Notes under the pieces: generated by a model | What the model was told of the DNA's origin: nothing | The model's database searches: none | Seen by the model: only the letters and a program-made list of their open reading frames with translations | Source: Nitrospira sp. | GTDB lineage: Bacteria > Nitrospirota > Nitrospiria > Nitrospirales > Nitrospiraceae | DNA: 64,000 nucleotides | Direction of reading: 5' to 3' | Assembly: GCA_018242725.1 (NCBI GenBank) | Contig: JAFEBI010000015.1 | Span: forward strand, 1 to 64,000 | Position numbers and translations under genes: made by a program | Part shown: positions 4,430-10,114 of the stretch, in pieces | Layout of the letters: each line of letters starts with the position of its first letter | Numbering within the stretch: the first letter of the stretch is position 1

Positions 4430-4868
<439 letters not shown>

Positions 4869-4903: not shown

Positions 4904-6007
4904 TTACAAGAGAGGGGTAAAAGGCAACCCATGCGATTCCGCCACACCAGCATGCGTCACTTTCCCCTCTTTCAAGTTGACTCCTTTAGCCAAACCAGGG
5001 TCGGAGCGAATCGCTCGCTCTATCCCCTCGGAGGCAAGGTGCATCAGATACGGCATGGTCGCATTGGTCAGAGCATAGGTGGATGTGCGGGGAACAATTC
5101 CGGGCATGTTGGCCACACAATAGTGGATCACCCCCTCTACCAGATACACCGGATCAGAATGGGTCGTTGGTCGAGTTGTCTCAACACACCCCCCCTGATC
5201 GACTGAGACATCGACGATTACGGAACCTGGTTTCATCTGTGAGACCAGTGCGCGAGACACCAATTTGGGTGCCTTAGCACCTGGAACAAGCACCGCGCCA
5301 ATCACCAGATCCGCCACGCAGACGGCTTCTTCGATGGCGGCGGCACTCGCCGCACGGGTGACAATGCGCCCGTGATACTGATCATCAAGGACACGCAACC
5401 GTTCAATATCGAGATTGATCACCGTGACCTGTGCTCCTAACCCCACCGCCATACGAACGGCAGATGCTCCGACCACTCCGGCTCCTAACACCACTACCCG
5501 ACCAGGCTCCACACCTGGAACTCCTCCCAATAGTACTCCGCGTCCTCCATGTGTTTTCTCAAGATACTGAGCGCCGATCTGAATCGACATTCGACCCGCG
5601 ATCTCACTCATCGGCCGGAGCATGGGAAGACTCCCATCTTTAGCCTCGGTCGTTTCATAAGCAATAGCCGTGATCTTGCGATTGAGAAGCTCTTTGGCGA
5701 CATCCGGGACGGCAGCAAGATGCAAATACGTAAACAAACCCTGACCGGGACGGAATAGTGCACATTCTGGAAGCGTCGGCTCCTTGACCTTCAGAATCAG
5801 CTCCGACTTTTCGAACACCTCAACCTTTGAGCCAACAATCGTAGCGCCGGCCTTGCGGTATTCCTCATCAGGAAACCCACTACCCACACCGGCTGACGCT
5901 TCGACCCAAACGTCGTGTCCTTTCCGGCGTAAACTCTCAGCACCATCTGGTGTGAGACTGACCCGATACTCATGATCTTTGATTTCCTTTGGAATGCCGA
6001 TCACCAT
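4904..6007 (-). CDS. ald: Alanine dehydrogenase
   Basis: Ald interconverts alanine with pyruvate and ammonia using NAD. The 367-residue protein starts with [20 protein letters not shown], typical of the family. It has the substrate-site segment LFTYLHLA and an NAD-binding Rossmann loop [17 protein letters not shown] in the middle. The ATG at 6007 is chosen over a start 14 codons upstream because it matches the family N-terminus and is preceded by a purine-rich GGGGAAGGGAAG. It is a single gene, divergent from the ferredoxin operon. Confidence 0.95.
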
Positions 6008-6191
6008 ACTGACTTCCCTTCCCCTCCCCTCGGCTAGGCCCCGCGACATCTATTTCAAGCATTATACCTCAGACCGCTACATCTCGGTCGGAACTCAGGT
6101 GCTGTTTTTGAAATCCTCCCGACCCATGGACCATGGACAGTCCGGAAAGTCATGTTGTAAGATGCGCCGTCGACGTAGTCAGGAGGTAGAA

Positions 6192-6575
6192 ATGAATGCC
6201 TGGAATCACTCGTGTCAGGCCTGTGGCTTCCCTAGTAGTCCGCTGACCAAATTGTCGCTGGGAAAAGATTTTTTTGGCCGCCCCTATGATCGTTTATCGC
6301 CGTCGTCGGATCAAAACCCACGGTGGTACTGCACATCCTGTTCCTTGCATAAACACTTCCAGCGGGATTTTCGTGACATTCTTGCCGAATTCGATAAATT
6401 GCGATCTGGGTTCGCTTCTGAACTGTCCAAGGCTGACGAATTTCGACGAGCCTCGTTGCGATTACATGAAATCATGACGATTCTGAACACGCCCCAGCAG
6501 ACATCTACGCTCCTCAACAACCGCGACGTCACGGTCCTGATGGAGCGACTCAACACTTTGACGATGCCCGTGTAG
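6192..6575 (+). CDS. Unknown protein with two CxxC pairs
   Basis: I do not recognise this 127-residue protein. It has C8-x2-C11 (CQAC) and C47-x2-C50 (CTSC), a spacing suited to a zinc ribbon or metal site, followed by a helical C-terminal half. A strong AGGAGGT sequence ends five bases before the ATG at 6192, which rules out the longer upstream reading that overlaps ald. It is the first gene of the ferredoxin operon, with the next start 12 bp on. Confidence 0.75.
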   Translation: MNAWNHSCQACGFPSSPLTKLSLGKDFFGRPYDRLSPSSDQNPRWYCTSCSLHKHFQRDFRDILAEFDKLRSGFASELSKADEFRRASLRLHEIMTILNTPQQTSTLLNNRDVTVLMERLNTLTMPV

Positions 6576-6586
6576 CGATCACGTCT

Positions 6587-6940
6587 ATGCCACCATTTCA
6601 GCGACATATTTTCGTGTGTACCAACCAGCGTCCTAAGGATGATCCTCGAGGTTGTTGCGCCAATTTAGGCTCTGAGAAGCTTCACGCCCACTTCAAGAAC
6701 GAAGCCAAGCGACTTAATCTGAAAGGTGTCGTCCGGGCCAACAAAGCAGGCTGCCTGGATCATTGTGAACTCGGTCCGAGTGTGGTGATCTACCCTGAAG
6801 GCGTCTGGTATTGGATCGGATCAGAAGCTGATGTGACTGAGATCATGGAACGCCATGTTTTAGGAGGGGAGATCGTGACTCGTTTGCTCATGCCCGACCA
6901 TCCGGTTCCTGATCGGCTCATTCCGCTCACACAACCGTAG
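6587..6940 (+). CDS. Thioredoxin-like [2Fe-2S] ferredoxin
   Basis: This 117-residue protein matches the thioredoxin-fold [2Fe-2S] ferredoxins found as NuoE-like domains and stand-alone carriers. The cluster ligands are C11 (FVCTNQRP), C23 or C24 (RGCC), C56 and C60 (GCLDHC), followed by the family's ELGPSVVIYPEGVWY. It is a soluble one-electron carrier. It is second in a four-gene operon that also encodes a bacterial-type ferredoxin. The electron donor is not known. Confidence 0.88.
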   Translation: MPPFQRHIFVCTNQRPKDDPRGCCANLGSEKLHAHFKNEAKRLNLKGVVRANKAGCLDHCELGPSVVIYPEGVWYWIGSEADVTEIMERHVLGGEIVTRLLMPDHPVPDRLIPLTQP

Positions 6941-6958
6941 ACGGTCCCCTTCATCTCT

Positions 6959-7372
6959 ATGCCCACTGAAGACAAATGGAAGGCCAACATGGAAAAAGTG
7001 GCCTTCGCTCAACAGTTTCCTGGATTGCTCCGGAACTGGAGTGACTGCGCGGGGAAGACGATCCGATCCGTCGTTCCCTTGACTGGCAAGCCAGGCGCCG
7101 CCGTCGTCGTCTTTACTGACGAGTCCTTCACAATCGTTCCACCGCTTGCCCCTGAACCCTGGGCCATCGGACAAGCCCTCGTCGACGCACGCACACAACT
7201 GGAACCGGCACACCAAGCAGCCTATACGGAGTATGATCGTTTGGCAAAGAAGGACAAGGACGCATTGCGAAGCGCCAGACTCGAAAAAATCATCGGTGCG
7301 ATTCACAACAATATGGAGCAGATTCCTGAGCTGAAAGATCGCCTGAGGGCGCTCGTCAAGGAATGGACGTGA
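6959..7372 (+). CDS. Conserved unknown protein in ferredoxin operon
   Basis: I do not recognise this 137-residue soluble protein. It has one Cys (about 30, in WSDCAG), a beta-rich first half with KPGAAVVVFTDESFTIVPP, and a charged helical second half. It starts 18 bp after the [2Fe-2S] ferredoxin gene and overlaps the next ferredoxin gene by 10 bp, so all are probably translated from one transcript. Confidence 0.75.
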   Translation: MPTEDKWKANMEKVAFAQQFPGLLRNWSDCAGKTIRSVVPLTGKPGAAVVVFTDESFTIVPPLAPEPWAIGQALVDARTQLEPAHQAAYTEYDRLAKKDKDALRSARLEKIIGAIHNNMEQIPELKDRLRALVKEWT

Positions 7373-7671
7373 GCAGTCTACCCAACAAGAATATGTTCGA
7401 GATCTTCTCGCAAGGTCTCTTTGAAGGAGTGAAACCCATGTTGGTCATCCGTGATCATCTCGTCCGCCATCCGGACCGCTGTACCCACCAAGCCGTGTGT
7501 GTTCCTATCTGTCCAACCAGCGCCTGGCTCTCCACCCCTCCCTACAAGTTCGACCCCTCACGCTGCCTTGAAAGCTGTCGGCTCTGCTTGGACGCCTGTC
7601 CCTCTCAGGCGATTTATGCCGTCTTTAGAAAAGGCGACAAATTGTTGGAGCCGCAGAAGAAGACAGGGTAA
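7363..7671 (+). CDS. Bacterial-type ferredoxin with seven cysteines
   Basis: This 102-residue protein has two cluster motifs: C40-x5-C46-x3-C50-P and C68-x3-C72-x2-C75-x3-C79-P. A standard 2[4Fe-4S] ferredoxin has eight Cys; here the second Cys of the first motif is Gln43. That pattern is compatible with a [3Fe-4S] site plus a [4Fe-4S] site, or with only one cluster. It overlaps the preceding gene by 10 bp and closes the operon. A low-potential electron carrier role is inferred. Confidence 0.82.
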   Translation: MDVSSLPNKNMFEIFSQGLFEGVKPMLVIRDHLVRHPDRCTHQAVCVPICPTSAWLSTPPYKFDPSRCLESCRLCLDACPSQAIYAVFRKGDKLLEPQKKTG

Positions 7672-7829: not shown

Positions 7830-8900
7830 TCACATAATCTGTTTACGCAGATGCCCCCAATACGCGGTCCCAGCGTATCCGCAGGCACCAGTACCAGTGG
7901 TCATGGCCATAATTTGATAGACCTTGCTGCGAGGGATTTTTATCTTCACGGTGTGGTTCAAAAGGTCCGGAGAATTCATGACGAGTTTAAGCGATTCTCC
8001 GGCGGAAAGGATCGGCCACATACAGGCTAACCGTAACCGTGTTTCATGGCGCGGTATCGCCATCGTATAGGCCCAGCCCTGATCGAGATGCTCTACCGCC
8101 ATGCGAATCAACTTGTTGAGGACAGGCCGCAATCGAGGCAAACACTTCTGAGCGAGTAAGTCCTGCGGCGTGATTCCAACTTCGGTCAGCATCGTTTCAG
8201 GAATATAGCATCGACCCTTCTGAAGATCATGGGCGATATCTTTGACGATGTTCGTCAACTGCAGCCCCTTCCCAAATCGCACCCCTTGCTCAGACATCTG
8301 TTGCACATCCCAGTCGGCAAGGGCCTTGCGATGGGCGCACATCAACACCGTCCAAAATTCACCGACACAACCGGCCACTGAGTAGGTGTAGCGGTCGAGG
8401 TCATCAATGGTCTTGAGCGCCGTCAGTTCGCCGGGATCGGCACCTGGAAAGGCATTCAGGTCCATTTCCATTCCCTGCGTCAGCGTGACCATCACACGCC
8501 GAATCCGATGTTGATCGTCCGATGAACAGACCTGAAATATTTGAAAACACTCATCCAACCGTTCCAGCAGAATCCGTTCCGCTGAATCTTGTTGCACCGA
8601 CCCAACGGCCTGTTGAATAGACCGGATCTGTCCCCAGTCGAGCTGCTCGCCGACAAACTGCTCCCTGAGGCGGTGAAGAAACCCGAGCCGACGCGGTCGA
8701 TCGATAAGTTCGGTATCGGCAATCGTATCGGCCGCCCGAGCAAAGAGGTATGCCAATCCCACTTGATCACGCACGTTGGCGGGCACCACTACCAGAGTGG
8801 TGTAAAACAGACGGGAAACCTGCTTGAGAAGGTCTCGGAGCAAAGTGACTTTGTCAGATGATTTGATGGATGAGATATGGCCTAAAGCAAACGGCATCAC
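7830..8900 (-). CDS. Squalene/phytoene synthase family protein
   Basis: This 356-residue prenyl transferase has both Asp-rich motifs of the family, DTIAD at 58-62 and DIAHD at 221-225 (in TNIVKDIAHDLQKGRCYIP). Such enzymes join two prenyl diphosphates head to head; in hopanoid makers they are HpnC or HpnD. No hopanoid cyclase or second synthase is in the window, so the exact product is open. Two ATG codons are adjacent at the start. Confidence 0.88.
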   Translation of the reverse strand: MMPFALGHISSIKSSDKVTLLRDLLKQVSRLFYTTLVVVPANVRDQVGLAYLFARAADTIADTELIDRPRRLGFLHRLREQFVGEQLDWGQIRSIQQAVGSVQQDSAERILLERLDECFQIFQVCSSDDQHRIRRVMVTLTQGMEMDLNAFPGADPGELTALKTIDDLDRYTYSVAGCVGEFWTVLMCAHRKALADWDVQQMSEQGVRFGKGLQLTNIVKDIAHDLQKGRCYIPETMLTEVGITPQDLLAQKCLPRLRPVLNKLIRMAVEHLDQGWAYTMAIPRHETRLRLACMWPILSAGESLKLVMNSPDLLNHTVKIKIPRSKVYQIMAMTTGTGACGYAGTAYWGHLRKQIM

Positions 8901-9130: not shown

Positions 9131-9199
9131 GTCGGCTGTTCCATCTTCGGTCTTTGAGATGAATGCGTAGGCGAAAGCTTATCGCGAAGGAGGATGTTT

Positions 9200-10114
9200 A
9201 TGAAGTGGCTCAAAGGTATTGGCCTGTTCCTGATTGCAAACTTTCTTATCTTCATCACACTGTCATTCACGGCCAATCTATTGATCAACTCCGTACTACC
9301 GGCATTTGGAATTGACGTCCGTGGAGTGTTCAACCAGCAACTGTTGGTATTCTCATTGGTCATTGGGTTCGGCGGAGCATTCATCAGCTTGGCGTTCTCC
9401 AAGCAAATGGCCCGTGCCATGCTGGATTGTCAGCAGATCACCCAACCCCGATCACACGCTGAGCACGTCATCTATGGGTCGGTGCAAGAGATTGCCCAGC
9501 GGCTTCATATTACGATGCCGGAAGTCTGGGTCTATGACTCGCCTGACCCCAATGCGTTTGCGACCGGACCAAGCAAGAACAATTCAATGGTTGCGGTATC
9601 CACTGGCCTCCTGCAAAACCTGAAGGAAGAGGAAGTCAAAGCCGTGCTCGCCCACGAAATGGGGCATGTCTATAACGGCGATATGTTTGCGACAACGGTT
9701 CTCGCCGGCCTGATGAATACCTTCGTGTATTACATCAGTAACTTTGTCTCTCACCTGATTGCGCAACCGAGTCAAGATCGTGAGGAAGGATCTGCAGGCA
9801 ATCCGTTCTTAGCGATGATCGTGTATTTCTTCCTCCAGGTGGTGCTGACGATTCTTGCATCAATTGTCATCGGTTGGCACTCTCGTCGTCGCGAGTTTGC
9901 CGCGGATGCCTTCTCAGCGAAGGTCTATGGGAAAAATGCGATGATCAATGCCCTCCGTGGCATCGATCGTTGGGTCAACCGTACGCAATTCGAATACTCG
10001 AATCAAGACGCCTTGGCCACCATGAAGATCGCAGGAAGCTCTTCAGGCTTCATGCACCTATTCGCGACGCATCCACCCATCGATGCGCGTATTGCGGCAC
10101 TTGAGCAGTTGTAG
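9200..10114 (+). CDS. htpX: Membrane zinc metalloprotease HtpX
   Basis: HtpX is an M48 protease that degrades misfolded membrane proteins. The 304-residue protein has two N-terminal membrane segments, the zinc motif HEMGH near residue 152, two further membrane spans around 160-220, and the third-ligand helix RREFAADAFSAK. The ATG at 9200 sits 6 bp after AAGGAGG; the ATG at 9194 is too close to it. It appears to be transcribed alone. Confidence 0.94.
   Translation: MKWLKGIGLFLIANFLIFITLSFTANLLINSVLPAFGIDVRGVFNQQLLVFSLVIGFGGAFISLAFSKQMARAMLDCQQITQPRSHAEHVIYGSVQEIAQRLHITMPEVWVYDSPDPNAFATGPSKNNSMVAVSTGLLQNLKEEEVKAVLAHEMGHVYNGDMFATTVLAGLMNTFVYYISNFVSHLIAQPSQDREEGSAGNPFLAMIVYFFLQVVLTILASIVIGWHSRRREFAADAFSAKVYGKNAMINALRGIDRWVNRTQFEYSNQDALATMKIAGSSSGFMHLFATHPPIDARIAALEQL

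Follow-up and report, generated by a model that had tools for sequence, protein, structure and literature searches.

Four small genes of a Nitrospira genome, here called g1 to g4, form a genuine operon that is conserved across Nitrospira and order-level relatives and whose invariant core consists of the two ferredoxin genes, g2 and g4. Judging by the aligned sequences, one cluster-binding cysteine of the g4 ferredoxin has been permanently lost in Nitrospira and these relatives, and the pattern that is left points to a 7Fe protein.

Layout and conservation of the operon

The genome has a size of 4.0 Mb in 34 contigs, and the stretch of DNA analysed here (64,000 nucleotides, hereafter the window) lies on one of these contigs. 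The four plus-strand open reading frames described in an earlier note made from the sequence of the window are all intact, the longest version of the last one running from 7363 to 7671, and the spacers of 11 bp (g1–g2) and 18 bp (g2–g3) are as it gave them (Table 1). The 10-bp overlap that it proposed between g3 and g4 has to be revised, since a comparison of starts in relatives favours an overlap of 4 bp. The codon at 7363 is ATG, GTG, CTG or TTG depending on the relative; at 7369, all Nitrospira compared have GTG, and most other loci have a start codon there. Because of this conserved codon, of an AAGGA located at a good distance upstream of it and of the GTGA overlap with g3, GTG 7369 is the likely start of g4, which would give a protein of 100 residues.

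Table 1. Features of the operon and of its surroundings (positions in the window)
Feature	Position	Strand	Remarks
tRNA gene	4795–4868	−	Rfam, 64.1 bits
Alanine dehydrogenase gene	4904–6049		upstream of the operon
g1	6192–6575	+	127 aa; two CxxC pairs; AGGAGGT upstream of the ATG
g2	6587–6940	+	117 aa; thioredoxin-like (Shethna-type) [2Fe-2S] ferredoxin
g3	6959–7372	+	137 aa; unnamed family
g4	7369–7671	+	seven-cysteine dicluster ferredoxin; 100 aa from GTG 7369, the likely start (102 aa from ATG 7363)
GTGA overlap, g3 stop and likely g4 start	7369–7372	+	from sequence and comparison of starts
First cluster motif of g4, C40-x5-C46-x3-C50-P51	7480–7515	+	codon of position 43 at 7489–7491
Second cluster motif of g4, C68-x3-C72-x2-C75-x3-C79-P80	7564–7602	+	from sequence and alignment
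Squalene/phytoene synthase gene	7833–8900		downstream of the operon
HtpX-like gene	9194–10114		downstream of the operon

A protein search recovered Nitrospira genomes as relatives, among them Candidatus Nitrospira defluvii and N. moscoviensis. To assess conservation, 154 loci were fetched with g4 as anchor: g2 and g4 occur together in every one of them and the complete g1-g2-g3-g4 arrangement in 137, so that the operon is not a product of chance. Almost every Nitrospira-family genome examined has the four genes in this order. The incomplete loci lack g1 (11 loci, family f3), g3 (5 loci, at least four of them in family f2) or both (a single locus). Counted by genome, g4 is present in 39 of 43 near-complete genomes of relatives; in family f4, g2 is present and g4 was not detected. 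Outside the order, no relative of g4 was found at E 1e-8 in a sample of the phylum Nitrospirota, where the only matches were generic Fe-S proteins near 1e-5, and a search of plasmids returned one weak Streptomyces match and no clear relative. Of the four proteins, g4 is also the most conserved, with a mean pairwise identity of 0.87 versus 0.75, 0.65 and 0.64 for the other three.

In families f1, f2 and f3 the operon has the same surroundings, with the genes for alanine dehydrogenase, squalene/phytoene synthase and HtpX in unchanged order; the first two are carried by the opposite strand. This recurrence reflects old synteny rather than function. A scan for promoters and terminators came out near chance level.

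The seven cysteines of g4

The g4 protein matches Fer4_7 (E 3.2e-9), and on recheck it displays the cysteine pattern reported in the earlier note, with a glutamine at position 43. Residues are numbered here from ATG 7363; counted from GTG 7369, the cysteines stand at positions 38, 44, 48, 66, 70, 73 and 77. The full spacing reads C-x5-C-x3-C-P-x16-C-x3-C-x2-C-x3-C-P, and a DNA pattern written for it matches the window copy at 7480. All 91 distinct g4 sequences contain exactly these seven cysteines, not the eight of a 2[4Fe-4S] ferredoxin, which bears out the proposal that g4 is a dicluster ferredoxin whose first cluster is one ligand short. Position 43 is occupied by Gln in 67 of the sequences, Asn in 19, Lys in 4 and Ser in 1, and never by the cysteine that would have argued against a special cluster. 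The earlier note had taken Gln43 as a cluster ligand; with such variability, position 43 is not a conserved ligand and the site simply appears to be without one, an amide ligand being disfavoured by the occurrence of Lys and Ser. Note that the AlphaFold2 model of g4 (pLDDT 38.7) is too poor for cluster geometry or for a fold search.

In dicluster ferredoxins, ligation is usually crossed between the two motifs. Cluster I of g4 would then receive C40, C46 and C79, and cluster II C50, C68, C72 and C75; with three cysteines for the former and four for the latter, one [3Fe-4S] and one [4Fe-4S] cluster are predicted, and we consider it probable that g4 is a 7Fe ferredoxin of this kind. An alternative is that both clusters of g4 are [4Fe-4S], with cluster I binding its fourth iron through a non-Cys group such as His42 or through water or hydroxide, possibly with interconversion of the 3Fe and 4Fe forms. 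His42 is indeed invariant and adjoins the position of the lost cysteine, and 3Fe/4Fe interconversion has been noted in ferredoxins (PMC11430716). However, His42 is displaced by one residue from where the ligand usually stands, and position 43 itself offers no conserved ligand, so that we regard two [4Fe-4S] clusters as unlikely and retain the 7Fe prediction.

g2 and other ferredoxins of the genome

That the second gene codes for a thioredoxin-like [2Fe-2S] ferredoxin, as proposed earlier, is borne out by its four ligands, C11, C24, C56 and C60, which are invariant in 117 distinct sequences, and by its match to the Aquifex aeolicus [2Fe-2S] ferredoxin 1f37 (E 5.8e-21), with which it has the four-cysteine pattern and the fold family in common; by both features g2 belongs to the Shethna-type ferredoxins. 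The NCBIfam fdxn models match g2 with E-values of 1e-21 to 1e-22 and scores below their cut-offs (79 versus 195 bits for NF041613, 77.5 versus 150 bits for NF041612); by its sequence, g2 thus seems related to these equivalogs without being the same equivalog. The genome codes for one more [2Fe-2S] ferredoxin of the thioredoxin-like type, which shares about 40% identity with g2 (L181:4961-5287, G000:C21), and for another small dicluster ferredoxin (L253:1292-1639, minus strand, G000:C3), a possible alternative low-potential carrier whose homologue in family f4 adjoins lipA and Fe-S assembly genes.

The small proteins g1 and g3

The CxxC pairs of g1 (C8/C11 and C47/C50) are kept wherever they could be aligned, one sequence excepted, and a Pfam search with g1 gave no match over cut-off, so that g1, too, belongs to no named family; the protein probably has a zinc-ribbon-like site and, after it, a helical tail. 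In other lineages g1 is found away from the operon (L202:5429-6924, L213:3865-5654, L205:3957-5349), its neighbours there being a fructose-1,6-bisphosphatase gene in family f20 and a weak lipoate-ligase-like gene in family f12.

The AlphaFold2 model of g3 (mean pLDDT 93.3) comprises an N-terminal helix, a small β-meander and a long helical hairpin. Fold searches with Foldseek and VIA-align found nothing significant for it (best E 0.16, best Z 3.7), and assignments as Med26-like (Pfam) or L29-like (PDB) were rejected, the matches being weak and covering the helical part. Homologues of g3 are present across the phylum. Outside the order, g3 adjoins g2 in two lineages (L171, L173), and in family f20 it lies 25–72 bp downstream of a PF02552 gene, coding for the delta subunit of a 2-oxoacid:ferredoxin oxidoreductase, whose product has 62–66% identity with the delta subunit of one oxidoreductase operon of the Nitrospira genome analysed here. 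These delta–g3 pairs occur in three genera, away from the other subunits (L207:4397-5527, L214:5176-6405, L216:372-1532, L233:2721-3861). From its gene content, family f20 may be Leptospirillum-like, and the forD genes of Leptospirillum ferriphilum also stand apart from the other subunits (Levican et al., PMC2607301). The pairs are confined to family f20 and could go back to one event in an ancestor. The other lineages mostly show g3 on its own or next to genes without Fe-S links.

Altogether, the neighbourhoods of g3 are suggestive of a link to Fe-S proteins, and g3 probably has an accessory role related to Fe-S clusters, in their maturation, docking or protection. The earlier suggestion that both unknown proteins belong to the electron path of the ferredoxins therefore holds in part: g3 has Fe-S-related neighbours in several lineages, whereas g1 sits elsewhere, for instance by fructose-bisphosphatase. 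Another possibility is that the operon serves Fe-S assembly or repair rather than carbon metabolism; the ferredoxins would then act as reductants and g3 would be a maturation factor. Consistent with this idea, two f4 genomes have g3 downstream of Rrf2, Nfu, Mrp/NUBPL and PF06155 genes (L254:2207-5214, L255:3222-6389); however, g3 is missing from the Mrp loci that were inspected in other lineages and from those of two further f4 genomes, and no assembly gene lies near the operon in Nitrospira. We regard an operon for assembly or repair as improbable.

A possible role in autotrophic electron transfer

In the scheme that we favour, the operon would provide two soluble electron carriers, g2 and g4, together with two small accessory proteins, g1 and g3. 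The g4 protein would work as a 7Fe one-electron carrier, cluster I being [3Fe-4S] and cluster II [4Fe-4S], and would hand on electrons within central autotrophic metabolism, in which ferredoxin is used mainly by the reductive TCA cycle's 2-oxoacid:ferredoxin oxidoreductases. Confidence differs from one part of this scheme to the next. The operon itself, its conservation, the pattern of cysteines and the gene neighbourhoods are directly observed; the types of cluster, the partners and what g3 does are inferred. We hold a carrier role to be highly probable, we give about even chances to the whole explanation, i.e. a two-ferredoxin electron-transfer operon with a 7Fe g4 in autotrophic metabolism, and we put forward a role in CO2 fixation only tentatively.

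A supply of electrons to pyruvate and 2-oxoglutarate oxidoreductases (POR/OGOR) would fit the organism, the neighbourhoods of g3 and the presence in the genome of two oxidoreductase operons of the five-subunit type. Both of these operons encode a delta and a ferredoxin-like epsilon subunit; the idea that g4 substitutes for a missing epsilon subunit was therefore dropped, an epsilon-like reading frame being found in each. Family f4 has 2-oxoacid oxidoreductase genes and no detected g4, which argues that g4 is not generally required for these enzymes, and this family, like the other dicluster ferredoxin of the genome, weakens the case for CO2 fixation. In Aquifex, the partners of 2-oxoacid oxidoreductases are single-cluster [4Fe-4S] ferredoxins (PMC10052474). 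No ferredoxin serving CO2 fixation in Nitrospira is named in PMC6606698 or PMC8407350, and the way in which Nitrospira, a genus of major nitrite oxidizers, reduces low-potential carriers for this purpose is described as unknown (PMC8407350).

Instead of moving freely as a carrier, the g4 protein might also be built firmly into a larger complex as a small subunit for electron transfer, in the manner of the epsilon subunits. Its strong conservation outside the cluster motifs, for example in the LFEGV, RDHL and STPP stretches, does suggest a large fixed interface. However, the operon contains no enzyme gene, its conserved outer neighbours lie on the opposite strand, and the oxidoreductase operons already have epsilon subunits of their own; we find a fixed subunit even less likely than the alternatives considered above and keep to the soluble carrier. 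At its most specific, the scheme would make the operon the dedicated reductant supply of an oxygen-tolerant reductive TCA cycle in Nitrospira, acting through a [3Fe-4S]/[4Fe-4S] and a [2Fe-2S] ferredoxin, with g3 as a new accessory family for 2-oxoacid:ferredoxin oxidoreductases or Fe-S assembly. In this full form it is a speculative proposal, which we doubt more than we believe. The operon makes the stated gap, electron supply to CO2 fixation in Nitrospira, testable: the nearly order-wide ferredoxin pair with its fixed cysteine pattern narrows the proteins worth testing in nitrite oxidizers to a short list, and g3 represents a conserved family without a name, next to which Fe-S genes recur.

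Comparison with known ferredoxins

The published consensus of 7Fe-8S ferredoxins is CX3-10CX3CPX17-40CX2CX2CX3CP, and C-x5-C-x3-CP is the first motif of several 7Fe-8S subtypes, for instance subtype 9 (CX5CX3CPX18CX2CX2CX3C); a C-x3-C-x2-C-x3-C motif occurs in 2[4Fe-4S] subtype 11 (PMC8928951). The first motif of g4 agrees with the 7Fe-8S form C-x3-10-C-x3-CP in all 91 distinct sequences. Although one motif I cysteine is gone, the invariance of the other three and of the proline would be unexpected for a decaying site, and it is very unlikely that g4 assembles only cluster II next to a degenerate first motif.

Like the 7Fe-8S subtypes with a C-x5-C-x3-CP motif, g4 thus combines a three-cysteine first motif and its proline with a four-cysteine second motif. 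It departs from the full consensus by a spacer of 16 residues, versus 17–40, and by a second motif that begins with C-x3-C (C-x3-C-x2-C-x3-CP, not C-x2-C-x2-C-x3-CP), and differs from these subtypes also by a conserved N-terminal stretch of its own, of about 37 residues. Similarity to Azotobacter vinelandii ferredoxin I and FdxA-type ferredoxins is weak and lies in the cluster region (PDB E-values of 6e-5 and 2.6e-5), and scores with the FdxA models fall far below their cut-offs (26.3 versus 135 bits for NF045490, 24.5 versus 65 bits for NF058577). In A. vinelandii ferredoxin I the motif I spacing is x7, and there is an additional free cysteine. In iron-sulfur subunits such as FrdB/SdhB, the loss of the second cysteine of CxxCxxCxxxCP goes with a [3Fe-4S] centre; unlike g4, these proteins are enzyme subunits of another architecture. 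By its cysteine pattern, g4 is probably a 7Fe-type ferredoxin, of a spacing absent from the published 7Fe-8S subtypes.
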